From an uncultured Spirochaetaceae bacterium (GTDB taxonomy: Bacteria > Spirochaetota > Spirochaetia > Treponematales > Treponemataceae): DNA of 49,064 nucleotides. Made by a program: the position numbers and the translations under genes. Under the pieces are notes generated by a model. The model was given only the letters and a program-made list of their open reading frames with translations, was not told where the DNA came from and ran no database searches. The stretch covers positions 1 through 49,064 of the forward strand of contig CACYWZ010000013.1 of the NCBI GenBank assembly GCA_902778325.1, written 5' to 3'. The number at the start of each line of letters is the position of its first letter. Position 1 is the first letter of the stretch. Below are positions 887-36,620 of the stretch, piece by piece.

Positions 887-1091
887 ATAAATTTGAATTT
901 TTTGCCTCCCCAGAAGAAAAGGAAGCAATAAATTTAAATTTTTCACCTCCCCAGAGCAAAAGGAAGCAATAAATTTGAATTTTTCATCTCCACAGAAGAA
1001 AAGGAAGCAATAAATTTGAATTTTTCACCTCCCCAGAAGAAAAGAAAGCGATAAATTTAAATTTTTCACCTCCCCAGAAGAAAAGAAAGCA
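887..1091. repeat. Tandem repeat, five 41-bp units
   Basis: Units start at 887, 928, 969, 1010 and 1051, each exactly 41 bp. The unit combines ATAAATTTGAATTTTTCACC with a purine-rich half, CCCAGAAGAAAAGGAAGC. Copies differ by a few substitutions (ATTTAAATT for ATTTGAATT, AGAGCAAAAGG for AGAAGAAAAGG). The block lies between the divergently transcribed chemoreceptor and the sugar-importer operon. Because 41 is not a multiple of three, the unit cannot code a uniform peptide repeat. Confidence 0.95.
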
Positions 1092-1200
1092 AAAAATTTT
1101 TGTTTATGGCTCAAAATAGGGGAGGAAGAGAAAAAAAGTTTGGAGGTATTTTCGAAAAATAAAATTTCTTTCTTTTTCGAAAATTTTTGATAAAAATAAT

Positions 1201-1229
1201 TTGACAAACGTAAAAAAGCGGGTGATAAT
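1201..1229 (+). promoter_or_regulatory. Sigma-70 type promoter of the sugar importer operon
   Basis: TTGACA at 1201-1206 is a perfect -35 box. GATAAT at 1224-1229 is a near-perfect -10 box. The spacer is 17 bp. Transcription should start near 1236, leaving a leader of about 50 nt before the chvE start. This is the best consensus promoter in the window, as expected for an abundant binding protein. Confidence 0.85.
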
Positions 1230-1240
1230 TTATTTGTTGC

Positions 1241-1252
1241 GTTAACGATAAC
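1241..1252. promoter_or_regulatory. Probable LacI-family operator
   Basis: GTTAACGATAAC is an imperfect palindrome of the form GTTAnCGnTAAC with a central CG, the hallmark of LacI/GalR-family operators. It lies just downstream of the predicted transcription start (about +6 to +17), where a bound repressor would block initiation or early elongation. No LacI-family gene is in the window, so the regulator would act in trans. Confidence 0.6.
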
Positions 1253-1287
1253 ATAATGTGAACAAATTTATTGGGGGAATTTGACCT

Positions 1288-2394
1288 ATGAAGAAAATTT
1301 TGGCAATTTTGACAGCGGCAGCGATGACTTTCTCGCTGTTTTCTTGTGGCGAGTCAAAGGGAAAGGAAGCGGGTGCTAGCGCTTCTTCTACAACAGCAGC
1401 AAAGAAAATTGTAGGTGTTGCAATGCCTACACAGTCTTCAGAGCGCTGGATTAACGATGGTGCTAACATGAAGAAGCAGCTTGAGGCAAAGGGCTACTCT
1501 GTTGAGTTGCAGTATGCTGAGGACGATGTTCAGATGCAGGTTTCTCAGATTGAGAACCTCATCGCAAAGAACGTCAACTGTCTTGTTGTTGCCGCTATCG
1601 ACTCAACAGCTCTTGTAAACGTACTTGCACAGGCAAAGCAGAACGGTATTCCTGTTATTGCTTATGACCGTCTTTTGATGGACACAGACGCTGTTTCATA
1701 CTATGCGACATTCGATAACAAGGGTGTTGGTACTGCAATCGCAAAATACATCGAAGAGAAAAAGCAGCTCAAAACTGCAAAAGATGAGGGTCGCTCATAC
1801 ACAATCGAGTTCTTCATGGGCTCACCAGATGACAACAACGCTCTTTTCTTGTACAACGGTGTTATCGAGGTCTTAGGGCCTTATCTTGAGAATGGTGTTT
1901 TGAAGTGCAAGACTGGACGCACAACATTCGACAAGACTTGTATCTTGAGATGGTCTCAGGAAACAGCACAGCAGTGGGCAGAGAACTACCTCTCTGGCTT
2001 CTATGGCGATGAGAAACTTGACATTGCATGTTCTGCATTCGACGGATTCGCTTATGGTATCAAGGCTGCTCTTGAGGGCGCTGGATACACAGCAGACAAC
2101 TGGCCGCTCATCACAGGTCAGGACGCAGAGCTTATGGCAACAAAGAACATCATTGCAGGCACTCAGACAATGTCTATCTACAAGGACACACGTCTTCTTG
2201 CTTCAAAGTGCGTAACAATGGTTGAGGCTGTTCTTGAGGGTGCAAAGCCTGAAATCAACGACACAACACAGTACAACAACGGAAAGCTCGTTGTTCCGTC
2301 ATACCTTTGTACTCCTGTAGCTGTTGACCAGGATAACTATCAGTCAATCATCATTGACGGTGGCTATTACACAAAGGCACAGCTCGGATTGTAA
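1288..2394 (+). CDS. chvE: Multiple-sugar ABC transporter substrate-binding lipoprotein (ChvE type)
   Basis: A 368-residue type I periplasmic binding protein. Residues 1-20 form a lipoprotein signal with lipobox LFSC, followed by a Ser/Ala/Lys-rich linker. The mature protein begins VGVAMPTQSSERW and has the ChvE/XylF-like pattern: a DDVQMQVSQIENLI segment, PVIAYDRLL, and near the end GQDAEL and TVMV-like hinge segments. The family binds pyranose sugars (galactose, glucose, xylose, arabinose) and hands them to the GguAB pump. The start is set by GGGGGA at 1273-1278, nine nt upstream of the ATG. It is followed by gguA and gguB in the canonical order. Codon use is strongly biased (AAG, ACA, CAG, GAG), consistent with high expression. 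The exact sugar cannot be told from sequence. Confidence 0.82.
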   Translation: MKKILAILTAAAMTFSLFSCGESKGKEAGASASSTTAAKKIVGVAMPTQSSERWINDGANMKKQLEAKGYSVELQYAEDDVQMQVSQIENLIAKNVNCLVVAAIDSTALVNVLAQAKQNGIPVIAYDRLLMDTDAVSYYATFDNKGVGTAIAKYIEEKKQLKTAKDEGRSYTIEFFMGSPDDNNALFLYNGVIEVLGPYLENGVLKCKTGRTTFDKTCILRWSQETAQQWAENYLSGFYGDEKLDIACSAFDGFAYGIKAALEGAGYTADNWPLITGQDAELMATKNIIAGTQTMSIYKDTRLLASKCVTMVEAVLEGAKPEINDTTQYNNGKLVVPSYLCTPVAVDQDNYQSIIIDGGYYTKAQLGL

Positions 2395-2424
2395 AATATT
2401 AAGCCTTAGAAATAATGGCAACTG

Positions 2425-2472
2425 AAAAATCCCGCATCAAAACCGTTTTTGCGATTTGGTCGCGGGATTTTT
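2425..2472 (+). terminator. Hairpin between chvE and gguA (partial terminator/attenuator)
   Basis: AAAAATCCCGC at 2425-2435 pairs perfectly with GCGGGATTTTT at 2462-2472, an 11-bp stem ending in a T run. It lies inside the operon. Such hairpins after binding-protein genes usually stabilise the upstream message or reduce read-through, so the binding protein is made in excess over the pump subunits. Confidence 0.75.
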
Positions 2473-2497
2473 TACTTAAAACTGGGGTGTGATTTTA

Positions 2498-4066
2498 ATG
2501 AACGATATTATTTTGGAAATGTCGCATATTACAAAGGAATTTCCTGGCGTAAAGGCTCTTGACGATGTTTCAGTGAAGGTTGGACGCGGCGAGATTCACG
2601 CGCTTTGTGGTGAGAACGGCGCTGGAAAATCAACTCTGATGAACGTGCTTTCAGGAAGCTATCCTTATGGTACTTACTCAGGCGACATTATATATAATGG
2701 CAAAGTTTGCAAATTCCGTTCGCTTAAAGACAGCGAAGAAAAAGGTATTGTTATTATTCATCAGGAACTTGCTTTGAGCCCTTATTTGTCGGTTGCAGAG
2801 AACATTTTTATGGGCAACGAGCAGCTTTCGATGCCAGGTGTCATCAACTGGGACAAAACAAGGTCTAAAGCGGTTGAGATGCTCAAAAAAGTAGGACTTG
2901 AGCATGAAAACATAAATGCGCCTGTCAATTCTCTTGGTGTTGGAAAGCAGCAGCTTATTGAGATTGCAAAAGCGCTTGCAAAAAAAGTAAACCTCCTTAT
3001 TCTTGATGAGCCTACAGCCTCTCTTAACGATGAAGAGAGCGCGAATCTTCTTCAAATCTTGCTTGATTTGAAAAAGCAGGGAATCACGTGCATTATGATT
3101 TCGCACAAACTTAACGAAATCAGCTATGTTGCAGACAAAATCACTGTTATCCGCGATGGAAAGTCGATTGAAACGCTCACAAAAGGAGTGGACGATTTTT
3201 CTGAGGAGCGAATCATCAAGGGAATGGTTGGTCGTGAGCTTACGAACCGCTATCCGCCTCGAACTGATTGCAAAATCGGCGATGTGATTATGGAAGTGAA
3301 AAACTGGAATGTTTATCACGAAGATGACCCTGACAGACATTTCATAAAAAATGTTAATTTTAATGTGCGTGCAGGCGAAGTTGTTGGCTTTGCAGGTCTT
3401 ATGGGAGCCGGTCGAACTGAGCTTGCGATGAGCATTTTCGGAAAGGCTTGGGGACAAAAGATTACAGGCACGATAAAAATGCACGGCAAAGAAGTCAAAA
3501 TCAATTCCGTGCAGGACGCAATCAACGCAAAAATCGCCTATACGAGCGAAGACCGAAAAAATTACGGTTTGGTCTTGATTGACGACATCAAGCACAATAT
3601 GACGATGGCTGCGCTGAAGAATTATTTTTCAAAAAAAGGCGTTGTCGACAGTAACGAAGAGATTGTCAAATCTGAAGAGTATAGAAGTCGCATCAATGTA
3701 AAAACTCCGTCGATTAACCAGAAAGTCGGAAACCTCTCTGGCGGAAATCAGCAGAAAGTCGTTCTTGCAAAGTGGATGCTTTCTCAGCCTGACGTTCTTA
3801 TCCTCGATGAGCCGACTCGTGGTATCGACGTTGGTGCAAAATACGAGATTTACTGCGTTATCAACGAACTTGCAAAGAGCGGAAAAGCTGTTATCGTAAT
3901 CTCTTCTGAAATGCCTGAAATCTTGGGAACTTGCGACCGCATCTACGTCATCAACGAAGGCGAAATCGCAGGCGAGCTGAGTGCAAAGGGCGCAACTCAG
4001 GAAAGCATTATGAAATGTATTATGGCTCACAATAATTCAAAAGGAGATTCTTATGGAACTAAATAA
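2498..4066 (+). CDS. gguA: Multiple-sugar ABC transporter ATP-binding protein (GguA/MmsA)
   Basis: A 522-residue double ABC ATPase of the sugar (ribose/xylose/multi-sugar) type. The first half has an intact Walker A (GENGAGKST), a degenerate signature (LGVGKQQL) and Walker [12 protein letters not shown]. The second half has the usual degenerate P-loop ([11 protein letters not shown]), a canonical signature LSGGNQQKV and [20 protein letters not shown]. It powers uptake through GguB. A GTG at 2489 is in frame, but GGGG at 2484-2487 would be too close to it; the ATG at 2498 has correct spacing and was chosen. The 3' end overlaps gguB by 14 nt, implying coupled translation. Confidence 0.88.
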
Positions 4067-5261
4067 GCCGCTGACAAATAAAAAAGTCGCGTCTATAGAC
4101 TTGAAGCAATACGGAATGGTTATTGCTCTTATTATGATTTTCTTGCTGTTCTTCTTCGCAACTGGCGGAAAGAACGCTTCCCCGACAAATATCAACAACC
4201 TGATTATGCAAAACGGCTACGTCGTTATCCTTGCTGTCGGTATGCTTTTGTGCGTCCTTACAGGTAACGTCGATTTGGGCGTCGGCTCTGTTGTCGCTTT
4301 GACAGGCGCTTGCTCTGCGATTCTTGTCGTTGATATGGGGCTTCCTGTTTATCTTGCATTCATTGTTGCTCTCCTTGTGGGAACACTTTCTGGCGCTATC
4401 GTCGGCTTTTTCATCGCCTATATGCACATTCCGCCTTTCGTCGTGACGCTCGGCTCAATGCTTATGGGACGCGGTCTTACATACACAATGCTCAAGGCAC
4501 AGACAAAAGGACCGACACCTCCGCTTTACAACCTCATCGGTGTCGGATTCTTGCCAACAATCAACATTCCGTTCGGACACGTTGGTCCAAACCGTGTTCC
4601 GGGACACTTGGACTTGGTGTCAATGGCAATCGCGGTTATCGCAAGCGTTCTGATTATCTTGGGCGAAATCAAGGCGTACAAGACAAAAAAACGCTATGAC
4701 TTCCCTGTAAATCCAATCTGGCAGCTTGTCGTAAAGCATGTGATTATCCACTTTATTTTGTGGTTCTTGATTTACAAGCTCGCTCGCAACAACGGTATCC
4801 CGAACGTCCTCGTTTTGATGGTTATCCTCGTCGGAGTCTATCACTTCATCACAAGCCGCACTGTCGCAGGTCGCCAGATTTACGCTCTCGGCGGAAACGA
4901 AAAGGCCGCTCGCCTTTCAGGTATCAACACTCGAAGCGTATTCTTCTGGGTTTATCTCAACATGGGCTTCTTGGCGGCTGTTGCCGGTATCGTCCTTTCT
5001 GCGCGAAACGGCTCTGCAACGCCAAAGGCTGGTGACGGCTTCGAGCTTGACGCAATCGCTTCTTGTTACATCGGAGGCGCTGCTGCAGCTGGTGGTGTCG
5101 GAACGATTATCGGAGCTGTCGTAGGTGCTTTCGTCATGGGTATTTTGAACAACGGAATGTCATTGATTGGTTGGTCAACTGATATCCAGAAAGTTGTTAA
5201 GGGCGCAGTTCTTGTCGGAGCGGTCGTCTTTGACATCATTTCAAAGCGAAAGAAGGCATAA
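4053..5261 (+). CDS. gguB: Multiple-sugar ABC transporter permease (GguB/MmsB)
   Basis: A 402-residue polytopic inner-membrane permease of the branched-chain/ribose (BPD_transp_2) family. It shows many hydrophobic segments and the family motif [19 protein letters not shown], then [20 protein letters not shown]. The long form near 400 residues matches GguB/MmsB rather than the ~330-residue RbsC or XylH. The ATG lies inside the end of gguA and is preceded by AAGGAG. It forms the membrane channel for sugars delivered by ChvE. Confidence 0.88.
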
Positions 5262-5280
5262 AAGCCAAATAATCTTTTGA

Positions 5281-5323
5281 AAAAAGAGCCTGTTTCCTTT
5301 TTGTTGGGAGCAGGCTTTTTTTG
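5281..5323 (+). terminator. Intrinsic terminator after gguB
   Basis: GCCTGTTTCC (5289-5298) can pair along its whole length with GGGAGCAGGC (5307-5316), with two G-T pairs and an 8-nt loop, followed by seven T residues. An A run precedes the stem. It ends the chvE-gguA-gguB transcript. Confidence 0.85.
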
Positions 5324-5339
5324 ACTTAAAACTGCATTT

Positions 5340-5566
5340 CTCAATTTTTGGCTAGAAATTGCCTTCTTCAAAGTGAAGCAAGCAGTTTCGGATTAGAAAT
5401 TGATTGCCGCAACAGTGAAGAAGTCAATTTTTGGCTAGAAATTGCTTTCTTCAAAGTGAAGTAGCCAATTTCGGATTAGAAATTGATTGCCGCAAGAGTG
5501 AAGAAGCCAATTTTTGGCTAGAAATTGGTTGCTGCAAGAGTGAAGTAATCAATTTCGGATTAGAAA
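5340..5566. repeat. Tandem repeat, alternating 41/42-bp units
   Basis: The shared word TAGAAATTG (or close variants) recurs at 5353, 5394, 5436, 5477, 5519 and 5561, so the period is 41-42 bp. Two unit types alternate (one begins GGCTAGAAATTG, the other GGATTAGAAATTG), giving a higher-order period of about 83 bp. Within a pair GAAATTG faces CAATTTC, and CTTC faces GAAG, so each unit can fold into a hairpin. The block fills the space between the gguB terminator and rpoZ. A short open frame crosses it but has no coding character. Confidence 0.9.
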
Positions 5567-5713
5567 CGTCAATGCAGTCTTTTGATTTCAATCGAAAAAT
5601 CTGTGCTGAAGACTTCTTTTTTTCGCCCTTTCGCTCAAATTTGCTGAAGCCGACAGAAAATTTTGTATTGCAATAATTTTTCGTTGTTGATAGAATATTT
5701 TTTGAGGTACACA

Positions 5714-5911
5714 ATGATATTCCCACTTGAACAGCTTGTGAAATTTAAGGGTAATGTTTACGCCGCAACTTGCGCCTCTGCAAAGCGTGCGTACCAGCTT
5801 GCGATGATGAAAGACCCGATACTTTCCGACAACGATGACAAAGCGGTGTCTATCGCCGCTCGTCAGATTTTCACACAAGACGTGCAATACAAAATCGCGT
5901 CTCCTGAGTGA
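5714..5911 (+). CDS. rpoZ: DNA-directed RNA polymerase omega subunit
   Basis: A 65-residue protein beginning MIFPLEQLVKFKGNVYAATC. The segment GN-Y--T--A-KRAYQL and the later DKAVSIAARQI match the omega pattern (helix with N-R/Y, then the conserved K-V-IA-REI helix). Omega helps assemble the beta' subunit into RNA polymerase. The reading frame is open upstream, but GAGG at 5704-5707 six nt before the ATG at 5714 fixes the start. Its TGA stop overlaps the GTG start of miaA in the tetranucleotide GTGA. The sequence is divergent, as usual for spirochaetal omega, so the name rests on pattern and size. Confidence 0.72.
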   Translation: MIFPLEQLVKFKGNVYAATCASAKRAYQLAMMKDPILSDNDDKAVSIAARQIFTQDVQYKIASPE

Positions 5912-6909
5912 ACGCTGTGGAAAAACTTCCGCTTCTTGCGCTTTATGCGCCGACAGCATGCGGAAAGACTGCTCTTTGTTCCGAGCTTTTTGGACGGAGC
6001 AGCCTTTTTTTTGCTTCCCGTGCCGAAATAATCAGCGCTGATTCGATGGCGGTTTATCGCGGTCTTGATATCGGAACTGCAAAGCCAACTGCTGAAGAGC
6101 GCAAAAATCTTGTGCATCATTTAATCGACGTTTGTGATATTTCACAGCAGTTTGGTGCAGGCGAATTTGTTGAGAGCGCTGATAAACTTGCTTTTGAAAT
6201 TGCTTCTCGCTCAAAGATTCCCGCTGTTGTTGGCGGAACTGGGTTTTATTTGCGCAATTTTCTTCTTGGGCTTCCTCCGACTCCGCCGTCGAATCCTCTT
6301 GTTCGCGAAAGGTTGAAAGAGCGGCTTTCAAAAGAGGGGAGTGAGGCGTTGCACGCGGAGTTAGCGCGTTTTGACGCTGAGAGCGCAAAGAAAATTCACC
6401 CGAATGACGCTTTTCGCATTTGCCGTGCGCTTGAAGTTTTTGAAATCTCAGGAAAGCCTCGAAGCGCATTCTCTGTTTCAGGCGCGATACGCTCAAAATA
6501 CGATGTTTGCACTGTCATTCTCACTCGAGAGCGCAATGAGCTTTATGAGCGGATTGATTTTCGCGTTGATGAAATGTTTCGGCGAGGGCTTGTTGATGAA
6601 GTTCAAGAACTGCTTTTCGAAGGTCATAACGCTTGTGAGCCTGGAATGCAGGCAATAGGTTATAGAGAATTTGCGCAGAAATGGCAGAACCGTCAATTCT
6701 CTCTTTCGGAGCTGGACGAAATACGGGATAATATAAAAAGAAACAGCAGAAAATATGCAAAAAAACAATTTACGTATATGAAAGATATTCCTGGAGCAGA
6801 GATTTTTAATGCAGATGATAGTGATTTGGTGATTAAAAAAATATCTGATTTCTGTGATTATGCGCTCAATCTACTTGACGTTTCGGGAAAAAGATATGAT
6901 AATCTATAA
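5908..6909 (+). CDS. miaA: tRNA dimethylallyltransferase
   Basis: A 333-residue MiaA. It adds an isopentenyl group to A37 of tRNAs that read codons beginning with U. The P-loop is APTACGKT (GPTASGKT in most homologues), followed by the signature SADSMAVYRGLDIGTAKPT and VGGTGFYLR. The C-terminal GMQAIGYREF and RNSRKYAKKQFTY motifs are intact. It starts at a GTG overlapping the stop of rpoZ, so translation is probably coupled. Its substrate dimethylallyl diphosphate comes from the pathway opened by dxs, encoded just downstream. Confidence 0.93.
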   Translation: MNAVEKLPLLALYAPTACGKTALCSELFGRSSLFFASRAEIISADSMAVYRGLDIGTAKPTAEERKNLVHHLIDVCDISQQFGAGEFVESADKLAFEIASRSKIPAVVGGTGFYLRNFLLGLPPTPPSNPLVRERLKERLSKEGSEALHAELARFDAESAKKIHPNDAFRICRALEVFEISGKPRSAFSVSGAIRSKYDVCTVILTRERNELYERIDFRVDEMFRRGLVDEVQELLFEGHNACEPGMQAIGYREFAQKWQNRQFSLSELDEIRDNIKRNSRKYAKKQFTYMKDIPGAEIFNADDSDLVIKKISDFCDYALNLLDVSGKRYDNL

Positions 6910-6935
6910 TACATTTTTACTAAGGAGTGCTCATC

Positions 6936-7025
6936 GTGCCTTGTGGAAAGAAAAGAAAGCGCGCAAAGATAGCGACACATAAGCGTAAGAAGAAGCTTAG
7001 AAGAAATCGACATAAGAGCAAGTAA
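6936..7025 (+). CDS. Small basic ribosomal protein, AURKAIP1/COX24 type (bS22-like)
   Basis: A 29-residue protein, MPCGKKRKRAKIATHKRKKK followed by LRRNRHKSK, read from a GTG with a strong AAGGAG at 6922-6927, eight nt upstream. The pattern K-A-THKRKK-LRKNRHK is the AURKAIP1/COX24 (mitochondrial mS38) signature; bacterial members correspond to the small-subunit protein bS22 reported in mycobacterial and Borrelia ribosomes. It would bind 16S rRNA. It follows miaA by 26 nt and is directly followed by a terminator. Standard gene finders often miss it because of its size. Family assignment is by eye. Confidence 0.8.
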   Translation: MPCGKKRKRAKIATHKRKKKLRRNRHKSK

Positions 7026-7036
7026 TTGCTTTTGTC

Positions 7037-7069
7037 AAAAAAGGGCTGGGGCAAAACCTAGCCTTTTTT
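7037..7069 (+). terminator. Intrinsic terminator after the rpoZ-miaA-bS22 operon
   Basis: An A run and GGCTGGG pair with CCTAGCC and a T run (one G-T pair, short loop GCAAAA), ending in six T residues. It separates this operon from dxs. Confidence 0.85.
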
Positions 7070-7111
7070 AGTATTTTTCTATTCAACCTATCTAAAAACG
7101 GAGTGTCTATA

Positions 7112-9031: not shown

Positions 9032-9046
9032 AGGAGATGTATAAAA

Positions 9047-9907: not shown

Positions 9908-9909
9908 TA

Positions 9910-13810: not shown

Positions 13811-14070
13811 TTTTTTTCTGACACGCTTGTCTTTCCAAAAAATCACTGCATGTCAAAATGACACGCCTTCACTTTTTAAAAAGTCATGAATGTCATTTTG
13901 ACACGCCCTAATTTTTGCTATAGTTGATGTTTGTCATGGTGACACGACGAGTTTTTTCAAAAAAAGAGCGAATGTCATTTTTACACGCGCTCTTTTTCGC
14001 TCCAGTCGTGGTGTGTCATGGCGACACGAGTCAAATTTTTCAAAAGTCAGTGAATGTCATTTTGATACGC
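13811..14070. repeat. Palindrome-bearing tandem repeat, 40-41-bp period
   Basis: A conserved core TGTCATnnTGACACG recurs at 13851, 13891, 13932, 13973, 14014 and 14055, with a partial copy (CTGACACGC) before 13830. Intervals are 40, 41, 41, 41 and 41 bp. Between the cores are 24-26 bp of more variable sequence, several containing a T-run/A-run mini-hairpin. The core itself is a near-perfect palindrome (TGTCATGGTGACA). The block fills the gap between the convergent genes truA and ltaE, so it could also terminate transcription both ways. Confidence 0.9.
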
Positions 14071-20335: not shown

Positions 20336-20476
20336 GCTCAAACCTCAAAATTTATTATATAACAGAATTTCGAAAAAAAACATTTTCTTTTCTAAAAAAT
20401 AGGTTATGGAAATGAAAAAATTGCTCAATAATACGGAATATTGAGCTTTGCTTTATTCTATTCATTGAAGTTTTAA

Positions 20477-20660
20477 ATGAGTATTGAAGGATTTTAGAAA
20501 AGGAAGCGAATTATTAAATGAGTATTGAAGGATTTTGGAAAAGGAAGTGAATTATTGAATGAGCATTGAAGGATTTTGGAAAAGGAAGCGATTTATTGAA
20601 TGAGTATTGAAGAATTTGGAAAAAGGAAGTGATTTATTGAATGAGTATTGAAGAAAAATC
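20477..20660. repeat. Tandem repeat, 41-bp units
   Basis: Units start at 20477, 20518, 20559, 20600 and 20641, exactly 41 bp apart. The unit contains ATGAGTATTGAAGGATTTTG then AAAAGGAAGCGAATTATTGA, with a few substitutions per copy. The word AAAAGGAAG is shared with the blocks at 887 and 36431. The last unit runs into a terminator-like hairpin that uses AAAAAGGAAGC as its 5' arm. Confidence 0.93.
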
Positions 20661-20700
20661 AAAAAGGAAGCAAACTCAACTTGAATTTTGCTTCCTTTTT
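20661..20700. terminator. Terminator-like hairpin at the end of the repeat block
   Basis: AAAAAGGAAGCAAA (20661-20674) pairs with the arm ending GCTTCCTTTTT at 20700; the stem is about 14 bp with a 12-nt loop and T runs on either strand. It may end transcription of the phosphopantetheinyl transferase gene coming from the right on the minus strand. Confidence 0.7.
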
Positions 20701-20731
20701 GAAAAAGCGAACAAACTCAAAAAAAATATTG

Positions 20732-20825
20732 TGTCATTCTGAGCGAAGTCGAAGAATCTACTCCAAAACACAATCAGATTTTTCGACTCCAAACGGCTAA
20801 TCGCCATTTTCCGCTCAAAATGACA
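20732..20825. repeat. REP-like long imperfect hairpin
   Basis: TGTCATTCTGAGCG at the left faces CGCTCAAAATGACA at the right (one mismatch), and the inner arms GTCGAAGAATCT and AGATTTTTCGAC also pair. The 94-bp element belongs to the widely seen intergenic family that begins GTCATTCTGAGCGAAG. It lies between a 41-bp repeat block and the 3' end of the phosphopantetheinyl transferase gene. Confidence 0.8.
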
Positions 20826-26552: not shown

Positions 26553-27300
26553 CGAAACAGAGCTTCTTGGCATAAAACGCGAGTTGGTTCTTGAGGATTT
26601 TCTTGAGTGCAAAAACAACCTGCATTTGCGGGCAAGGCACTCGGACGCGACTTTGAAATTCACGCTTCCCGTCGGCGATTATAGTATTTTGGACACCGAT
26701 GTTGTTTTTTCAGCAGAGTGCGACAAGAAAAATGCGCTTGAGAGCTGGCGAGAGAAAAAAATAAGCGTTGTGTTTTTTTATAATAAAATCGCCCTTTCGT
26801 TTTCGTCAGTTTTGCATTTCGACGGAAAAAAATATTTAATTCCGGTCTCCTCAACACTAAAGCGCGTTCAAAGAAAAGTCGGAGAGCCATTTTTCACGGC
26901 AACACTTTTTTCAGGCGAAAAACACTTCGTTTTCACAGCCTCTGCCTTTGAAGCCGCCTCGCTTTTTGCGCTTAATTTGAGAAAAGAAGCAAACACTTTT
27001 TTGACGAGCGCCGCAAGCAAAGGCGAAATCCCGTTTTCTTTTGTTGGCACAAACTCCGACGGCTTTCTTGTGGGAGGAGCAGGGGAGTGCCCGCTAAAGC
27101 GAGGAAGCGAATACGCTTGTTTGCTTTCGCTGAAAATTGGCGCTGTGAGCAGGCGCATAAGAGTGAAAAGTAGCGTCGAAACAAAGTTTATCTCGTCAGA
27201 GTTGAGCGATGTCTGGTGTGTTTTTTTGCGCTTTTTGGATTTGGCGGAGGAAGACAAGCGACTCTTGTTTGAAAAATCGTCAAATCGTCTTGTTTCTTAA
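26542..27300 (+). CDS. PilZ-like domain protein, tentative
   Basis: A 252-residue cytoplasmic protein started at the GTG at 26542, preceded by GGAGG. The C-terminal stretch VWCVFLRFLDLAEEDKRLLF closely resembles the end of PilZ domains (v-vrFldlseedr-rL). A basic patch LKRVQRK (about 112) and NSDGFLVGG (about 172) fall where the c-di-GMP motifs RxxxR and D/N-x-S-x-x-G would be, but neither matches cleanly. If it is a PilZ protein, nucleotide binding may be weak or lost. The 3' end runs into a 41-bp repeat block whose first unit overlaps the stop codon. Confidence 0.5.
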   Translation: MAISETELLGIKRELVLEDFLECKNNLHLRARHSDATLKFTLPVGDYSILDTDVVFSAECDKKNALESWREKKISVVFFYNKIALSFSSVLHFDGKKYLIPVSSTLKRVQRKVGEPFFTATLFSGEKHFVFTASAFEAASLFALNLRKEANTFLTSAASKGEIPFSFVGTNSDGFLVGGAGECPLKRGSEYACLLSLKIGAVSRRIRVKSSVETKFISSELSDVWCVFLRFLDLAEEDKRLLFEKSSNRLVS

Positions 27301-27575
27301 AGCCGAATTGAAAAAAGAGAAAAAGCAGGTCGTTTCCTTAAAGCCGAATTGAAAAAAGAGAAAAAGTAGGTCGTTTCCTTAATGCCGACTTAAAACGAGA
27401 GCAAAAGCAGGTCGTTTCCTTAAAGCCGAATTGAAAAAAGAGAAAAAGCAAGCCATTTCCTTAAAGCCGAATTGAAAAAAGAGAAAAAGCAGGTCATTTC
27501 CTTAATGCCGACTTAAAACGAGAGCAAAAGCAGGTCGTTTCCTTAATGCCGAATTGAAAAATGACAAAAAGTCTC
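27300..27575. repeat. Tandem repeat, 41-bp units
   Basis: Units start at 27300, 27341, 27382, 27423, 27464, 27505 and 27546, all exactly 41 bp apart. The unit combines AAGCCGAATTGAAAAAAGAG with AAAAAGCAGGTCGTTTCCTTA. Two variants occur (AAGCCGAATT and ATGCCGACTT, the latter with AAACGAGAGC). The pattern of variants (A A B A A B) suggests duplication of a 123-bp block. The array fills the gap between two convergent genes and starts within a stop codon. Confidence 0.95.
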
Positions 27576-28638: not shown

Positions 28639-28663
28639 TTTTGTTTTTCCTTGTTAAATAGAT

Positions 28664-29944: not shown

Positions 29945-29988
29945 AGTGTCCCTATTCTATATCGTGTATGTTTTTGTTTCAAGATGTT

Positions 29989-30711
29989 CTATTCCAACTC
30001 ATAGACGCAATCAACTTGAACAGAAACGATTTTTGTTCCTGCAGGAAGCGATGTTTCTTCAAATTGTGGCTCTGCAGCAATGTTCATTCTGTTTACTTTG
30101 AGAGATGCGCTTTCCATGTATGGCATTCCGCTCGAATATTCGTTGATTGTAAGGATTTTTCCAAGTTTTGCGCCTGTTGCTCCTGCAAGCATTTGAGCGG
30201 TGTCTTCGGCTTGTTTTACGGCGAGCATTCTTGCTTGCTTTACAGCTTCTGTATCGTCTTTGACATTATATGAAAGCGAAGTAAGTTCATTTGCGCCAGC
30301 GGCTACAGCGGCATCAATGAGTTTTCCTGCCAAAGTTACATCATTCAAGACGACGCGAACTTTGTTTTTCACTGTGTAATTTCTGTATCTCTTTTTTTCT
30401 GCTGTATATGCAATTTGCTGCTGGATTTTATAATCGAACGTTGAAACGTCGTTTTCCTTAACTCCATTGTCGCTAAATGCCTTTAACACTGCTGCCATAC
30501 GGTTTGCAGCGTCTTGTGTTGCTGTGTTTACGTCCCAACTTTCTGATGTTACAGAAAAGACAATTGTCACGCTATCAGGCTCAAGAACAACTTGTCCTGA
30601 TCCTCTGACAGAAACAGAACGCTCTCGCTCTGCTGTTTTTGCAGAATTTTCATGGCAAGAACAAAGAATTATTGCTGAAAGAAAAAACAATGGTAATACA
30701 ATTTTTTTCAT
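29989..30711 (-). CDS. SIMPL (DUF541) domain lipoprotein
   Basis: A 240-residue exported protein. GGAG upstream favours the ATG at 30711 over a TTG four codons earlier. The signal peptide has a lipobox ILCSC. The rest is a SIMPL domain (RSVSVRGSGQVVLEPDSVTI, then YRNYTVKNKVRVVL and a C-terminal KIVSVQVDCVYEL), the periplasmic/outer-membrane family that includes YggE of E. coli (oxidative stress related) and BP26 of Brucella. Function here is not known. Confidence 0.85.
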   Translation of the reverse strand: MKKIVLPLFFLSAIILCSCHENSAKTAERERSVSVRGSGQVVLEPDSVTIVFSVTSESWDVNTATQDAANRMAAVLKAFSDNGVKENDVSTFDYKIQQQIAYTAEKKRYRNYTVKNKVRVVLNDVTLAGKLIDAAVAAGANELTSLSYNVKDDTEAVKQARMLAVKQAEDTAQMLAGATGAKLGKILTINEYSSGMPYMESASLKVNRMNIAAEPQFEETSLPAGTKIVSVQVDCVYELE

Positions 30712-30740
30712 AAAAATCTCCAAAAAGTATTTTATAAAAA

Positions 30741-31874
30741 TTAATAGATATTGAAATAAAATCTCTCAAGATAAATAGCACGTTTTTCGGCTTCTGCGGC
30801 ATAGGTGCTATTTGGATAATTTAGAAGCAGATTCTTGTATGAACTGAGTGCTCCACGAATATTTTGCACAGATGAATATGCTTCAAGTATTTGTCCTTGC
30901 AAAAAAAGACCATGGTCAAGATTTGTAATCGCACTTCCAAAAAACGTATCGAGCAAAGATTTTGCTTCAGAAAAATTTCCCGCATTATATGCTTCTTGCG
31001 CTTTTTCAAGAACTGCATCTGTCTCACTTGGAGTTTCAGGCTGAGTTTCGCGGCTTTCGATTTTGAAAGAACTTGGGTCTGGTGCTTCTTTGTAAGAGCC
31101 TTTTTCACCTTGCGAAATTGTTTTTAGCGTGGTTTTATCTGATTCTGATTCAATTTCTGCTTTGCTCTCAGAAAGTTGCTCATCGTTTTGTTCTTGTTTA
31201 TCAGAAGTTTTTTGAGAGTTATTTTCTTGTGCATTTGAAGAGCCTTCAACTTCAAGAGCGATATAATCATCAATATATTTTTTTCCGATTACATCATTTT
31301 TGTAAAAATGCAAAAGAGTTGAGCCTGCATTTTTTGCAAAGAAATAAAATTCTGTTGATTTTTCTTTTGAGGCTGTTCCATCATAAGTTGTGATTTTATT
31401 CTCACCTTCTTCACCAAGATAAGTCCATTTCGTACCGTCAAAACTGATGCTGATATGCTGATTTTGTTTTGCAGAAATCGTTCTTGATGGCGTTATTTCT
31501 TTGCTCTCAGATTCGTTTTCTGTTTTGGATTCTGCTATTGTATTTTCAGACTTTTTCTCAGCAATTACTTCTTTTTCCACCTTAGGCTGTACAGAAGGTA
31601 GCTTTTTTTGCTCGTTTTTATTTTCAGAAGTTTTATTGCTAGCAGAATGTTGCACGTCTTCTGCTGCTTTTTTCTGTGGAAGAGCAATTTCATTTGCTTT
31701 TTGCTCATTGTTAACTGGTTCGACAAGATAAACTATCGTGTTATCTATTAATTCGCTTACAGCTTTTTTTTGAATGTTTGACTTCAAGACAACTTCTTCG
31801 TCTTGCAAAATTTCTTGAGCCGAAAGCGAAAATGATACTAATGCTACAAAAAACAAAAAGATCTTTTTTTTCAT
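30741..31874 (-). CDS. Exported TPR protein with low-complexity linker
   Basis: A 377-residue protein with a cleavable signal peptide (MKKKIFLFFVALVSFSLSAQ). Residues 70-125 and 210-275 are low-complexity, rich in Ser/Glu/Lys/Asn. Between them is a compact beta-like region (HISISFDGTKWTYLGEE ... EFYFFAKNAGSTLLHFYKND). The last ~95 residues form tetratricopeptide repeats (AQEAYNAGNFSEAKSLLDTF, NIRGALSSYKNLLLNYPNS), of the kind used in periplasmic assembly complexes. It overlaps the small membrane protein gene by four nt. Confidence 0.72.
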   Translation of the reverse strand: MKKKIFLFFVALVSFSLSAQEILQDEEVVLKSNIQKKAVSELIDNTIVYLVEPVNNEQKANEIALPQKKAAEDVQHSASNKTSENKNEQKKLPSVQPKVEKEVIAEKKSENTIAESKTENESESKEITPSRTISAKQNQHISISFDGTKWTYLGEEGENKITTYDGTASKEKSTEFYFFAKNAGSTLLHFYKNDVIGKKYIDDYIALEVEGSSNAQENNSQKTSDKQEQNDEQLSESKAEIESESDKTTLKTISQGEKGSYKEAPDPSSFKIESRETQPETPSETDAVLEKAQEAYNAGNFSEAKSLLDTFFGSAITNLDHGLFLQGQILEAYSSVQNIRGALSSYKNLLLNYPNSTYAAEAEKRAIYLERFYFNIY

Positions 31875-32242
31875 TGAACTGCTCCAAGGATTCCTTCGAC
31901 GAGTGAGTCATTTGATTTGCTCAAATCACGAATTCTGCTTTCATCTGGCTCTTCAAACCATCTGTCGACTTCTTCTTCGTCCCAACTCAAGTTTTGAGGA
32001 CGCGAAAGATAATAACCGTCCTCCATTGCTTGAGAACGTGGCATAAAAAGAGATTCTGCTGAAACAGGACTGTCTGAGATTTTTATGATGTCTTTATTAT
32101 TTGCTTGCGAGCATTGAGCAAAAAGCAATGCCACAAGAGCAATTATAAGAACAAAAAGCGCCGCAATCGCGCCAATAGCAGCTTTGCCCTTTTCTGCAAC
32201 AAAATCTTGAATAACGCCGCTCACATTGTCGATTATTTCCAT
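31871..32242 (-). CDS. Small single-pass membrane protein, function unknown
   Basis: A 123-residue protein with one membrane segment at about residues 22-43 (AIGAIAALFVLIIALVALLF) and an acidic, probably periplasmic tail (SWDEEEVDRWFEEPDESR). No family is recognised. It lies between smc and the TPR protein gene, overlapping the latter by ATGA, so the two are probably co-translated and may act together in the envelope. Confidence 0.68.
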   Translation of the reverse strand: MEIIDNVSGVIQDFVAEKGKAAIGAIAALFVLIIALVALLFAQCSQANNKDIIKISDSPVSAESLFMPRSQAMEDGYYLSRPQNLSWDEEEVDRWFEEPDESRIRDLSKSNDSLVEGILGAVQ

Positions 32243-32288
32243 TTGAAAAAACTCCTCTATATAAAATCGTGCATTTTCAGCCGTTTTT

Positions 32289-35147
32289 TCACTCTAAATT
32301 TCGTTTTGGAGGTCGACTTGGAATAACAATACCTTCTTCATCTGCAATTTCAGCGTCTTCATCAGCAATATTTTTCGAAAAATCTCTGTCTTGTGCTGTT
32401 GGAGGAGAGAACTCTTGGTCAAGCCTTAGCGCTATAATTTTGCTGATTCCGAACTCTTCCATTGTTACACCGAGCATAGCATTTGCGCCCAAAACAGTCT
32501 TTTTATTGTGAGTGATAACGATGTATTGGCTCATATCAGAAAAAGAATGAAGCGCATGTACAAAACTCATAACGTTTTTATCGTCCAACGCAGCATCGAT
32601 TTCGTCAAGCAGACAAAACGGAGATGGACGAACTTGGTAAGTAGCAAAAAGAAGAGCAATCGCTGTCATTGTCTTTTCGCCACCAGAAAGAAGCGCTATA
32701 TTTTCAAGTTTTTTTCCTGGAGGCTGAGCGTAAATGTCGATTCCTGTTGTCAAAACATTCTCGCCGTCCGTAAGACGCAACTCTCCACGACCGCCGTTCA
32801 TCAATTTTCGGAAAATATTATGGAAGTTTCTGCGGATTTCGTTGTATGTCTTTACGAACAATTCAGCGCTTTTTGCACGAATCTCGCTTGCAACACGCTC
32901 AAGGTCTTCCATCGATTTTTTCGTGTCGTCAAAACTTTGCTTTTGTTGCTCATAGCGCGTTTTCACTTCGTTAAAATCATCAACCGCCATCAAATTGATT
33001 TCACCGAGTGAGCGGATTTTTTCTCGAGCATCAAGAAGTTTTTCTTTTAGCTCAGAGTCACTTTGAGTGATTGAATCCATACGCTCTGAAAATTCCATCA
33101 AATCGCGTGAATGCTCTTCGCGGAAATTCTGCTTTGTGTTTGCAATGTCGCCTTCATTCATCGAAATATGAAGAGAAAGTTTTTCGTAGAGCGCCTGACA
33201 TTTTGAGCGCTCTTCTGTTTTCTTTTTCAGACTTGTCTGATTTATTTCAGTATCAGAACTATAAGTCTTTATCTTGTTTTCGAGCGTATTAAGAGTTTCC
33301 GCAATAGAGCGACCGTTTTTCTCAATCTCTGCCAAGTCTTCCTGAATCTCTGCGATTTTCTCTTCAATGTCTTCTTTTTTCTTGCTTTCCGAGAAAAACT
33401 CATCATCAAGTTCTTTTCGCGAAGCCTCTTCGCGCGCAAGAGATTTCCTCAAAATCCCGATTTGACGCTCATCAGCTTCAACCTGCGTCTTTTTCTGCGC
33501 TTCTTCAATACGCGCCTTTGAAAGCAAATCGCGAAGTTCTGCGATTTTTGATTGAGACAATGCGCTTTCTTCTTCGAGAGCCTTTTCCCTTTCTTCAATG
33601 GCTTCGATTTCGTCGCGAGCGCTTTTTATTTCAGAGTCGATTTTGTGCTTTTTGGAAATTATTCCCTCAGGCGAAAGAAGCTCGTCAATAAAACTCGGAG
33701 AATATTCAATGTACTCGTCGATGTGCTTTTTCACCGTTTCAATTTTCTTTTCGATTGTTGAAAGAGCGTCTGCATAATTTTCGATACTCTGCGCTTTTGA
33801 TTTTTGAGAGCGAACGAAATCCAACAAATCGCTTGTTGAACTTTCAATGTCTGATTTTGCTTTTTCGCATTTTTCAGCAGAATATCCTGCTTCTTGCAAC
33901 TTGGAATCGAGGCTTTGAACAATGTTTTCAGTAATCGCCTCAAGTTCGCCCTGTTTTTTTTGAAGCGACTCATCAAGTTTGACAATCTGCTCATTGCCAA
34001 GTTTTATTTTTGCGGCGTTTTCAAAAATAATGCGCTCAAAATTTTTTATAGAATCTTCGTTTTCCTTGATTTCATTTTCAAGACGCGAAAGTGCTTTTTT
34101 CTTTGCAAAAAGAGAAGAACTCTGCTCATCGATTTCTTCCGTCAATTCAGTGATGCGCTCTTCAAGAGATTTTCGTTTTCCGTCGATGTGATTGAGTTTT
34201 TCCTTTATTTGCGACAATTGCACAGAAAATTGCTTTGAAAGTTCGAGCTTGCCGTTTTTTTCAGCGCCAATGCTGATGAGCTTTGACTGAAACTCGTGGA
34301 ATTGCTCCTGTGAATCCTTGATTTTGTCCATATTCACAGACAAAAGTTTGTCCAGCTCCTCGATTTCGCTTTGCAGTTCCTTTCGCCTCTTTTCCGTTTC
34401 TTTTAGCTGCTCTTCCTGCCGCTTTTTTTCCTGCATTATGTTTTTCACTTTAAGCAGCTGACGGTCGATTTCCGTGTTGAATGCAGTTTCTTTGAGCGCA
34501 CGATATTGGAGAGTCTTTTCTGCCTGAACCTTAAGAGAATCGTATCGATTTTTTATCTCAGAAAGAGAAGCTTCGATTTGACTCAAGTTTACCCTTGTGT
34601 TTTCAAGCTCCCTTTCTGCCGCAGCACATTCGAGCTTGCTTTTGCTGATGCCCGCCGCTTCCTCAAACAAATATCGCCTGTCCTCAGGCTTGCTTGAAAG
34701 AATTTGGTCGATTTTTCCCTGCTCCATCACGGAATACGCCGATTTTCCGACCCCCGTGTTCATAAAGAGCTTTTTTATCTCGCTTGGAATGACTTTGTGA
34801 TTATTGATGAAAAACTCATTTTCGCCGCTTCTGTAAAGACGGCGCTTGAGCTCAATTTCGCTGTCATCGAGCGGCAAAATCTTTGCGCTGTTGTCAATCG
34901 TTAGCGCGACTTCGGCAATGTTGAGAGCCGCACGCTTTTCCGTGCCGTTAAAGATGACATCTTCCATCTTTTCGGCTCTCAAATTCTTTGAGCGGTTTTC
35001 AGCCAGAACCCATTTTATCGCGTCGACAACATTGCTCTTTCCGCAACCGTTCGGACCCAAGAGCGCCGTAATCCCGTCAGAGAAATCTATATGAGTGCGG
35101 TCGGCAAACGATTTGAAGCCGAATAAATCCAGACTTTTCAAAAACAT
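32289..35147 (-). CDS. smc: SMC-family chromosome condensation ATPase, hinge-poor form
   Basis: A 952-residue SMC protein. The N-terminal head has Walker A GPNGCGKSNVVDAIKWVLAE (about 31-50) and the C-terminal head has signature LLSGGEKTMTAIALLFA (about 819-835) and Walker B SPFCLLDEIDAALDD (about 842-856). Between them is almost continuous coiled coil (about 170-760). Bacterial SMC is about 1150-1200 residues with a globular hinge of about 150 residues in the middle. Here the only break is a short Pro/Gly stretch, EYSPSFIDELLSPEGI (about 481-496). No CxxC zinc hook is present. A TTGTAA-17-TATACT promoter ends ten nt before the ATG. It heads a minus-strand run. Confidence 0.9.
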   Translation of the reverse strand: MFLKSLDLFGFKSFADRTHIDFSDGITALLGPNGCGKSNVVDAIKWVLAENRSKNLRAEKMEDVIFNGTEKRAALNIAEVALTIDNSAKILPLDDSEIELKRRLYRSGENEFFINNHKVIPSEIKKLFMNTGVGKSAYSVMEQGKIDQILSSKPEDRRYLFEEAAGISKSKLECAAAERELENTRVNLSQIEASLSEIKNRYDSLKVQAEKTLQYRALKETAFNTEIDRQLLKVKNIMQEKKRQEEQLKETEKRRKELQSEIEELDKLLSVNMDKIKDSQEQFHEFQSKLISIGAEKNGKLELSKQFSVQLSQIKEKLNHIDGKRKSLEERITELTEEIDEQSSSLFAKKKALSRLENEIKENEDSIKNFERIIFENAAKIKLGNEQIVKLDESLQKKQGELEAITENIVQSLDSKLQEAGYSAEKCEKAKSDIESSTSDLLDFVRSQKSKAQSIENYADALSTIEKKIETVKKHIDEYIEYSPSFIDELLSPEGIISKKHKIDSEIKSARDEIEAIEEREKALEEESALSQSKIAELRDLLSKARIEEAQKKTQVEADERQIGILRKSLAREEASRKELDDEFFSESKKKEDIEEKIAEIQEDLAEIEKNGRSIAETLNTLENKIKTYSSDTEINQTSLKKKTEERSKCQALYEKLSLHISMNEGDIANTKQNFREEHSRDLMEFSERMDSITQSDSELKEKLLDAREKIRSLGEINLMAVDDFNEVKTRYEQQKQSFDDTKKSMEDLERVASEIRAKSAELFVKTYNEIRRNFHNIFRKLMNGGRGELRLTDGENVLTTGIDIYAQPPGKKLENIALLSGGEKTMTAIALLFATYQVRPSPFCLLDEIDAALDDKNVMSFVHALHSFSDMSQYIVITHNKKTVLGANAMLGVTMEEFGISKIIALRLDQEFSPPTAQDRDFSKNIADEDAEIADEEGIVIPSRPPKRNLE

Positions 35148-35180
35148 AACGTCAAAGAGTATACAAGAAAAATAATTGCA

Positions 35181-36368
35181 TTACAATTCACGAGGCTCGA
35201 CAACTTCGCCTCTGAAAAGCATCTTCGGGTGAACGACAATCTTGAGCCTTTTCTCAAGAGAGGCGTAATTCCTCATCTCCCGCTCATCTCCGATAACGAC
35301 ATTCACGCCGCTTTCTCCCTGACGCGCAGTTCGCCCGGCGCGATGAGTAAAATAAGCGTCGTCCTCGTTCAAATCCAGCTGAACAACGTGCGTCACCCCA
35401 CAAATATCAAGCCCGCGCGCAAAAACATCGCTTGTAACAAGAACATTGCTTTTTCCGCTCCTGAAAGCGTCAACAGCGTTCTTCCTCTCAAGTTTTCCCA
35501 TCTTTGCATAAAGAGATACGCACTTTATTTTTTTGAAAGTGAGTTTGCGTGCGATATTTTCAACTTGGTCGCCGCGGGAAGTGAAAACGATAATCTTTGC
35601 GCTTTTTTTCGCGCTCACAGCATTTATAAAAGAGCGAAGCGTATCAATTTTGTCGCGCCTTTCTGCGAAAATCGCCCAATGCTCAATTTTTCTTGAAAGA
35701 ATGTTTTCCTCAGGAAGCGCCTCAAAGCCAATTTCCAAGCCGCTCATTTTTTTTGCGCTCTCGCAAATCTTGCTGTTTGCAGTCGCAGAGCAGCCAATAA
35801 ATTGCAGATTTTCGTTTTTTGAAAGAAGCGAGAGAACTTCCTTCGTGTCGTCGCGAAGCTCGCGGTCAAAAAGACGGTCGATTTCATCAAGAACAACGAT
35901 TTTCACAGCGCTTGTCTTGAGCTTTTTGAGCCTTATCAACTCCAAGATTCGCCCGACACTTCCAATAACGACTTCAGGCTTTTCCTTTAGCGTTTCAATT
36001 TGCCGCTTTATCGGAGACGCGCCAATGATGAGCGCGGACTTTATAGAAGAAATCTTTTGAAGTTGTGCCTTGATTTGAGAAGAAAGCTCATAAGTCGGAG
36101 AAAAAATAAGAGCCTTAACAGAGCCGTTTCCCTCGATATTTTCGATTTGAGCCAAAATCGGAAGAAGAAAAGCGAACGTTTTTCCCGTTCCCGTTTCGCT
36201 TTTGAAAATCACGCTCTTCCCATTTGAAAGAAGCGGAATAATGCGCGATTGCACCGCAGTCGGCGCTTTTATGTTTATCGCTTCAAGTTTTTCTGTGTAT
36301 TTTTCGCTCACGCCGAGCGCGCCGAAAGTCGCCTCGCTGCTTTCGCTCTTGTTTTCATTGTCACTCAT
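35181..36368 (-). CDS. DExD-box ATP-dependent RNA helicase
   Basis: A 395-residue superfamily 2 helicase. Motifs in order: Q-motif region FGALGVSEKYTEKLEAI, I (SETGTGKT), Ia (SPTYELSSQIK), II (VVLDEIDRLFD, so DEID and not DEAD), III (CSATAN), IV-V (FTSRGDQVENIA; TSDVFARGLDI) and VI (HRAGRTARQG). It would unwind RNA duplexes in ribosome assembly or RNA turnover. The ATG at 36368 is chosen; an upstream frame extends into the repeat block and is not coding. TATAGT at 36375-36380 lies six nt before the ATG. Confidence 0.88.
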   Translation of the reverse strand: MSDNENKSESSEATFGALGVSEKYTEKLEAINIKAPTAVQSRIIPLLSNGKSVIFKSETGTGKTFAFLLPILAQIENIEGNGSVKALIFSPTYELSSQIKAQLQKISSIKSALIIGASPIKRQIETLKEKPEVVIGSVGRILELIRLKKLKTSAVKIVVLDEIDRLFDRELRDDTKEVLSLLSKNENLQFIGCSATANSKICESAKKMSGLEIGFEALPEENILSRKIEHWAIFAERRDKIDTLRSFINAVSAKKSAKIIVFTSRGDQVENIARKLTFKKIKCVSLYAKMGKLERKNAVDAFRSGKSNVLVTSDVFARGLDICGVTHVVQLDLNEDDAYFTHRAGRTARQGESGVNVVIGDEREMRNYASLEKRLKIVVHPKMLFRGEVVEPREL

Positions 36369-36430
36369 AAGCGCACTATAGCATATATTCAAAATCGAAA
36401 CTAGGGAGAAGCGGAAAAATGCGAAAAACA

Positions 36431-36620
36431 AAAAAGGAAGCCGTGGGAGCACTCCCAAGCGTTCCCCAACGAAAAAGGAAGCCGTGGGAGCACTCCCAAG
36501 CGTTCCCTAACGAAAAAGGAAGCCGTGGGAGCACTCCCAAACGTTCCCTAACGAAAAAGGAAGCCGTGGGAGCACTCCCAAGCGCTCCCTAACGAAAAAG
36601 GAGGGCGTGGAAGCACTCCC
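36431..36620. repeat. Tandem repeat, 41-bp units with internal palindrome
   Basis: Units start at 36431, 36472, 36513, 36554 and 36595 (the last is diverged), each exactly 41 bp. The unit contains AAAAAGGAAGCCG, then the palindrome TGGGAGCACTCCCA, then AGCGTTCCCTAACG. The block lies between the divergent helicase and response-regulator genes, downstream of neither promoter, so it could act on both. Confidence 0.95.

Follow-up and report, generated by a model that had tools for sequence, protein, structure and literature searches.

Dispersed intergenic arrays with a common spacing of about 41 bp in the genome of an uncultured Spirochaetaceae bacterium

The stretch of DNA analysed here (the window; 49,064 nucleotides, contig 13 in the assembly GCA_902778325.1) comes from an uncultured Spirochaetaceae bacterium whose assembly comprises 3.35 Mb in 173 contigs and is 94.3% complete. 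Six blocks of tandem repeats lie in this window. A reading made earlier from the letters alone (hereafter, the sequence-only reading) had reported that the blocks differ in unit sequence while repeating every 41 bp, and had proposed a common mechanism. Tandem Repeats Finder (TRF) recovered all six at the places reported, with periods of 41, 83, 82, 41, 41, and 41 bp (Table 1). All six are intergenic; by genes called with a simple codon model, divergent, convergent, and tandem gaps hold two blocks each, the mixture that had been described. Direct inspection of the blocks also bore out that their units differ, and the word AAAAGGAAG, said to be common to three of them, was present in blocks 887, 20477, and 36431. 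The further claim that several blocks carry a palindrome in each unit held in part: palindromes were visible by eye at 5341, 13811, and 36427 and weak at 887, and were not seen at 20476 and 27292.

Table 1. Repeat arrays of the window and palindromic sites of array 3
Feature	Position	Strand	Description
Array 1	884..1143	.	Period 41, GGAAGC/AATAAATTT family; divergent gap before ChvE-like gene; TRF 874-1099, period 41; extent 6.3 units
Array 2	5341..5566	.	Alternating 41/42 (TRF 83), palindrome CAATTT-N8-AAATTG; tandem gap
Array 3	13811..14070	+	TGTCA-NNN-TGACA family; convergent gap; TRF 13888-14070, period 82
Left half-site TGACA, in register, array 3	13819..13823	+	
Palindrome 1 of array 3	13851..13863	+	
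Palindrome 2 of array 3	13891..13903	+	
Palindrome 3 of array 3	13932..13944	+	
Palindrome 4 of array 3	13973..13985	+	1 mismatch
Palindrome 5 of array 3	14014..14026	+	1 mismatch
Palindrome 6 of array 3	14055..14067	+	1 mismatch
Array 4	20466..20720	.	Period 41; tandem gap; without clear palindrome; TRF 20476-20653, period 41; extent 6.2 units
Array 5	27292..27571	.	Period 41, higher-order 123; convergent gap; without clear palindrome; extent 6.6 units
Array 6	36427..36623	.	Period 41, palindrome TGGGAGCACTCCCA x5 at 41-bp steps (<=2 mismatches); divergent gap

The source genome was sampled, with about 0.8 of 3.35 Mb covered. A set of 26 loci (520 kb) was selected without regard to repeats, and 14 of the 40 loci, which had been picked via earlier hits, were kept apart in the period count on the 520 kb. 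These 14 were pooled into the lag scan, unit self-complementarity, gene placement, hairpin z scores, 30-bp lag windows, the recurrent-palindrome test, array-versus-array matches, and array extents. The comparison set consisted of 52 loci (946 kb) from 18 other genomes: Treponema saccharophilum, Treponema zioleckii, and 16 members of the same genus. For the period count, an array was a noncoding tandem repeat of at least 100 bp with a period of at least 15 bp. By this definition the 520 kb contained 58 arrays, 54 of which had periods of 40-42, 83/84, or 21 bp (31 at 41, 12 at 42, 3 at 40, 4 at 83/84, and 4 at 21); the remaining 4 were at 23/24. The other genomes yielded 8 arrays, two of them with a period of 40 or 41 bp. 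Arrays within coding DNA of the 520-kb set had periods of 21, 42, 69, 102, and 138 bp, all multiples of three. A lag scan independent of TRF, coding DNA included, gave at least 15 runs only at lags of 21, 41, 42, 63, 69, 82-84, 105, 123, 124, 126, 147, 164, 165, 168, 205, and 210, that is, at 21, 41, 42, and their multiples or sums, plus 69, a period that four coding arrays have as well. With 54 of the 58 arrays in one spacing class and the lag scan quantised, a broad spread of periods, named by the sequence-only reading as the outcome against it, was looked for in the sample and was not seen. The observation of a common period of about 41 bp is thus confirmed and is larger in extent than first described; extrapolation from the 520-kb sample gives roughly 320 arrays per genome. 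A spacing of 41 or 42 bp corresponds to four helical turns, and 21 bp to two. When the arrays were masked, autocorrelation of the intergenic DNA of this genome left a weak 41/42 signal, beside signals at 15, 18, and 21; the corresponding trace for congener intergenic DNA was swamped, probably by masked N, and is not used here.

The six window blocks are part of a numerous class of short intergenic elements dispersed through the genome. These are chains, mostly of 4-6 units, at 41 or 42 bp and in a few cases at 21 bp. Array extent was narrow, with a median of 5.4 units (interquartile range 4.3-6.2, n=80), and diverged arrays are underestimated in this figure: array 3, with six palindromes at steps of 40, 41, 41, 41, and 41 bp, received a lag-based extent of only 3.8 units. 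In the pooled sample (679 genes), the gene model placed 91 of 100 arrays outside coding sequence, even though such sequence makes up 88% of the DNA. Arrays were present in 26 of 72 convergent, 13 of 85 divergent, and 41 of 391 tandem gaps; the convergent excess over divergent gaps (Fisher p 0.003) may mean either that arrays are tolerated away from promoters or that they act at 3' ends.

Spacing was traced within the palindrome family of array 3. A scan for TGTCA-NNN-TGACA with at most one mismatch, in which spacings up to 90 bp were allowed, found clusters at five places (the window, C6, C14, C19, and C4), and all 22 distinct steps in this family were 41 bp (16 steps) or 40 bp (6 steps). The window, C6, and C14 loci share the step order of array 3. 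Moreover, over 139 linker bases these three loci were only 51, 55, and 63% identical in pairwise comparisons, with a net length change of zero. When the pattern was searched at start-to-start spacings of 34-45 bp in 198 genomes of the genus, only the source genome matched, with 11 matches, all at 40 or 41 bp; in a control, 61 stretches of viral contigs picked by the TGTCA pair pattern included none at 40 or 41 bp, most being at 44-45 bp. A plasmid search with array 3 as the query gave no match.

Spacing was also measured in 15 palindrome families that were defined by hand after inspection of the arrays. Eleven of the 15 formed 28 clusters with 115 steps, 114 of them at 40-43 bp and one at 83. 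The definitions AATTATGA, TTTAAACA, TGGGCA, and CCGAACGTTCGG gave no cluster of at least three sites as first defined; with changed loop lengths, three of these four gave 3, 3, and 1 clusters with 24 steps, 23 at 41-43 bp and one at 82. For all hand-defined families together, 137 of 139 palindrome steps were at 40-43 bp, and the other two were double steps (82 and 83). Each family tended to keep its own period: 42 bp for TTTCCA and AAACCGC, 42/43 for TATACA, 41 for TTCCC, TTAAG, and CTGAG, and 40/41 for TTCCTTA and TGTCA. Periods of both 41 and 42 occurred in CTCACATT, AATTATGA, and GGGCA, and the three loop-changed families mixed 41 and 42 (and 43). After rounding (40/41 to 41, 42/43 to 42), 8 families with 28 clusters, entered by hand, were each pure for 41 or 42, a result equalled in 0 of 20,000 shuffles; this test leans toward purity because singletons, CTCACATT, and the later mixed families were excluded and two clusters, both at locus L191, represent one recent duplication. 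At three loci the TATACA elements have one step order, 42, 43, 42, 42 (reversed in one case), and their gap-free alignments show 82-84% identity. Gap-free alignment of the TTTCCA pair at L100 and L198 gave only 30% in the single orientation compared. Because most families keep their own period and step orders recur, spacing seems to be inherited with the element, and some elements seem to have been copied whole.

The relation between spacing and sequence divergence was examined by comparing noncoding 30-bp windows at each lag. Near-identical windows numbered 89 at lag 41, 34 at 42, 1 at 40, and 0 at 43. Windows with 19-20 of 30 matches numbered 23, 35, 34, and 6 at lags 40-43 (5 at lag 39 and 2 at lag 44, against a background of 2 per lag), and those with 17-18 matches numbered 64, 62, 59, and 31 (background 15). 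Units that are 57-73% identical therefore keep to 40-42 bp; lag 43 was at twice background in the most diverged class, and lags 39 and 44 were near background. Spacing is thus kept within about one base either way while sequence drifts.

In part of the arrays the drift is confined: the palindrome core is nearly constant, and the linker, whose length hardly changes, drifts in sequence. In 25 of 88 arrays (24 of 85 from the source genome and 1 of 3 from other species) a palindrome recurred every 39-44 bp over most of the array length, and all 79 centre-to-centre steps fell at 40-43 bp although 39-44 was admitted. Between neighbouring units of these 25 arrays the stems (distance 3-6 from the centre) were 95-98% identical, a conservation partly preselected by the way in which palindromes were chosen, compared with 50-69% at distance 10-14; in the 16 more diverged palindromic arrays, identity at distance 10-14 was 37-59%. 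A weaker second dyad lies midway between palindromes (0.37 vs about 0.25; p=0.02 in 27 non-redundant units), and in 14 of 30 arrays the mismatches were blocky. The best contiguous palindrome stem in the consensus unit averaged 5.7, compared with 4.8 in shuffled units (n=78). Unit-wide self-complementarity as a universal rule was discarded, since only 29 of 100 arrays had p<=0.05; it is enriched, not universal. Direct half-period repeats were looked for in units and none were found. A helical harmonic in base composition was not relied on: the purine/pyrimidine harmonic 4 had z 3.8 (27 units), but 80 harmonics were examined and the W/S value was -1.8. When folded as single strands, arrays had a mean z of -2.85 (n=79), as against -0.95 for artificial tandems of intergenic 41-mers and -1.44 for plain intergenic DNA (n=70 each). 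Among the 79 arrays, 31 were not below z -2; the window arrays scored -0.91 (874), -5.08 (5342), -1.96 (13888), +1.15 (20476), +1.49 (27292), and -3.95 (36427), so that four of them are among the 31.

The arrays make up many sequence families with one spacing; some elements have spread between loci as entire copies. Five other sites in the genome align with most of array 1 at 79-90% identity; beyond the listed arrays, matches also fall at another 16 noncoding sites, 11 of which exceed 82 bp in length. Half-units recur in different combinations across arrays. Head-to-tail near-identical units occur in many arrays and are not found in the TGTCA and TATACA elements, whose linkers are dissimilar. 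Pairs of array copies separated by a few kb were observed at L191 (5262 and 7460), with both flanks alike at 96-99%, and at L202 (547 and 5161), with the right flank at 97% and the left at 60%. Many arrays end at half-sites: among 58 ends (29 arrays), 19 had an in-register inner arm with the outer arm missing, and 1 had the reverse. Over array ends as a whole, the inner arm was the better of the two at 36 ends, and the outer arm at 19 (p 0.03). Inverted repeats were not detected at the array termini, inverted matches between flanks numbering 3 against 4.0 expected (score >=11, n=82). Direct matches between left and right flanks at the same score numbered 11 against 1.3 expected and are probably degenerate units beyond the TRF ends. 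Thirty flank pairs had sequence in common, and several of these pairs are duplicates of an array together with its flank; an end module of general occurrence was not seen. A second palindromic repeat, of GATGCTGAAACAAGTTCAGCATGAC type, stands beside two TTCCTTA-family arrays (L092 16801-16870 and the right flank of L101 8473-8652). These conserved cores with drifting linkers, dispersed families, and half-site ends go beyond what the sequence-only reading had described.

The assembly was also searched for proteins that might read or make such elements, and no reader was found. For ParB (PF02195) there was no hit over the cut-off (best E 6.9e-4, C1:20218-20469), whereas the other 20 of 21 genomes searched had one, 18 with E below 1e-26. 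A congener ParB used as a query, in a search without a positive control genome, gave no match either. The missing ParB is a lead only, because congeners G007 and G008 also have no strong PF02195 form and the assembly is incomplete. The window itself, at 32289-35147, encodes an SMC-like protein of 952 amino acids that scored over the NCBIfam SMC_prok_B cut-off (model of 1181 positions), although the assembly has no ParB over cut-off. Y1_Tnp (PF01797) had no match in the assembly, while 13 of 39 genomes searched have one. RVT_1 was likewise unmatched. Cas1 (PF01867), the only cas gene tested, gave 0 matches, its control being positive in 9 of 14 genomes.

We favour, at about even confidence, the reading that these are dispersed intergenic elements with a selected four-turn spacing, the sites of which would be bound on one DNA face by one or more dimeric proteins. 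By analogy with ParB/SopB on sopC, the putative protein or proteins would occupy the palindromes on one face of the helix and assemble side by side. Selection would hold the spacing, most simply for such one-face occupancy, and recombination would swap units between elements and homogenise arrays. Nucleoid organisation, insulation, or a 3'-end function are candidate roles. The common mechanism proposed earlier is in this respect partly upheld: the helix-like spacing across different sequences stands, selection of the spacing by a phased architectural protein is the best reading, and the protein was not found.

Several results weigh against this selected-spacing reading. Besides the lack of a reader, of ParB, and of a match to the congener ParB, a single protein cannot recognise so many different palindromes. 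Only the 25 arrays mentioned above passed the palindrome test, their stems being partly preselected, and hairpin enrichment was absent in the window arrays at 20476 and 27292. In 36 arrays the link between conservation and dyad, taken without conditioning, was weak (mean r 0.07, z 2.9). Dissimilar palindromes, examined for phasing independent of one another, gave no clean 20.5-bp signal (one pair set was pseudo-replicated). Many palindromes stand outside chains: 25 of 47 TGTCA sites in 41 loci of the source genome were solitary, 122 sites of the 15 hand-made definitions lay outside clusters, and the three families with changed loops added 19 more. The families are also not wholly unrelated, given that 73 of 88 query arrays matched some other array (15 matched none) and single linkage placed 40 of 100 in one cluster; because copies inherit spacing, families are not independent events for length.

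This kinship lends weight to the strongest remaining rival, to which we assign a clearly smaller but still substantial probability: that a single ancestral array was copied to many places and its copies diverged, the 41/42 period persisting by descent in selfish or neutral elements whose spacing is unselected and whose repeats recombination would keep tidy. In its favour, the dispersed paralogues inherit step order, most arrays match another or fall into the single-linkage cluster, some copies carry their flanks, as at L191, and a preference for convergent gaps is what tolerated insertions would show. Against it stand the zero net length change in the three pairs of diverged TGTCA linkers, the locked spacing of diverged units, and the 15 arrays without a match. 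For comparisons of empty sites or of copy number, neither a close relative nor a second strain of the species was found: none of the ten genomes compared exceeded 77% DNA identity, and their matches were scattered over contigs.

We consider it unlikely that the elements act as RNA, in the form of small hairpin strings in 3' regions, terminators, or mRNA-end structures. The better folding of arrays than of controls and the convergent enrichment would suit such a role, but divergent gaps hold arrays as well, the window has no Rfam match at gathering scores, and an exact linker length is unexpected for strings of RNA hairpins. Covariation in palindrome stems was not convincing: compensatory cells numbered 9 for the midway dyad and 3, 1, 8, and 1 for the slid controls. 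The linker halves of the TGTCA family did not covary (z -1.0, 22 linkers), which favours a sequence or DNA-level constraint over RNA structure.

The enzyme that measures and amplifies 41 bp, the other mechanism put forward in the sequence-only reading, is rather improbable and was not supported. Such an enzyme, whether polymerase, recombinase, or transposase, would have a ruler fixed at 41/42 bp and amplify any sequence it met, which would account for different sequences having the common integer periods 21, 41, and 42 with few exceptions. However, the pattern looks more like element copying than the work of a ruler enzyme because dispersed families keep mostly family-specific periods and, in several cases, step order across loci; linkers inside one array can differ strongly, and Y1_Tnp, RVT_1, and Cas1 were unmatched. 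Finally, tandem repeats are common in bacteria, but chance or ordinary minisatellites are very improbable as the source of a sample with 54 of 58 noncoding arrays in one spacing class, compared with 2 of 8 in other genomes.

Bacterial intergenic repeats are usually treated one sequence family at a time; the families here have spacing, more than sequence, in common. REP/BIME elements, with RAYT (Y1) transposases, are dispersed intergenic palindromes in clusters; the arrays described here differ in their strict four-turn spacing across many palindromes and in the absence of a Y1_Tnp match in the assembly. CRISPR arrays combine a short palindromic repeat with a near-constant spacer length. In the present arrays the repeats are many and different, the spacers are mostly degenerate copies of each other, linkers recur within and between loci instead of being unique, and Cas1 was not matched.

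The nearest published anatomy found was the F-plasmid centromere sopC/parS_F, with twelve 43-bp tandem repeats and ten 16-bp inverted repeats (PMC6238139), which likewise has a tandem unit of about four turns; by the strict test a recurrent palindrome was present in 25 of 88 of the arrays described here. The centromere is one plasmid site with one palindrome, whereas the present elements are many chromosomal sites with many palindromes, in an assembly without ParB over cut-off. As dispersed elements, the nearest are BOX and BrickBuilt. BOX of Streptococcus pneumoniae is dispersed and composite, and its core module occurs in tandem in varying copy number (PMC3049150); it has few module families, with boxA/boxC ends, in contrast to many families with one spacing, a palindrome with a drifting linker, and no general end module seen. 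BrickBuilt, a miniature inverted-repeat transposable element of Porphyromonas gingivalis, is dispersed and intergenic and has inside it 19 tandem copies of a 23-nt unit (PMC4596501), but it has a leader and tail with small inverted-repeat ends and forms one sequence family, and no inverted-repeat ends were found on our arrays. The Wolbachia VNTR-141/-105 repeats are intergenic tandem repeats with hairpins at two loci, with different periods and units 98-99% identical (PMC3287509); they have no period common to families, unlike the arrays here. In titles and abstract openings, among the matches listed and with few subscription journals included, we found no report of a period common to different bacterial repeat families and none of 41-bp arrays in rumen Treponema.

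A spacing common to the families provides a genomic mark of helical phasing along a chromosome, as well as a route to what reads DNA geometry in vivo; the arrays are numerous enough for statistical testing across strain genomes or by a single footprinting experiment. A larger idea, which we regard as speculative and improbable, is a chromosome-wide scaffold: hundreds of site chains read by four-turn geometry and not by one sequence, in which about six modules would form a phased nucleoprotein unit, and which might stand in for canonical ParB, not found in the assembly, in nucleoid or segregation functions of this lineage.

Comparable chains were seen in other species. Treponema saccharophilum has one 41-bp array (L013 895-1218) and, at L175 2540-2810, an apparent chain of a TGCAC palindrome, diverged and spaced at 40/41 bp; the congener G018 has a TCGGAAAAATTCCGA chain (L123 13684-13954), the only one of the three to pass the recurrent-palindrome test. 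These arrays suggest that the four-turn design predates the species studied here. The design was rare in the other-genome samples, but 26 of the 28 congener and Treponema genomes were sampled with at most 82 kb covered.

Other repeats were noted in passing. Treponema saccharophilum carries separate 91/94-bp tandem arrays (L013 247-469 and L177 88-588), and G018 has a 36-bp repeat of 30 copies that is coding by the gene model (L151 10729-11822). In G026, a genome of the same order with 6 Y1_Tnp matches, L139, L140, and L141 hold arrays of 19, 21, 63, and 121 bp, and the 19-, 21-, and 63-bp consensus units carry GAGCTCTGTCCC or its reverse complement. In the window, a 28-bp word at 20732-20759 has an exact copy in Treponema zioleckii (G040:C29:35085-35112), and a different dispersed intergenic repeat therefore probably adjoins array 4. 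Lastly, the window gene at 42350-45130 encodes a 926-amino-acid protein with a C-terminal stretch like TIGR02171/GldK; its best relatives are in rumen/gut Treponema genomes, T. saccharophilum, and T. zioleckii, which bears out the spirochaete guessed at in the sequence-only reading, and the relatives sometimes lie on at least two contigs per genome.

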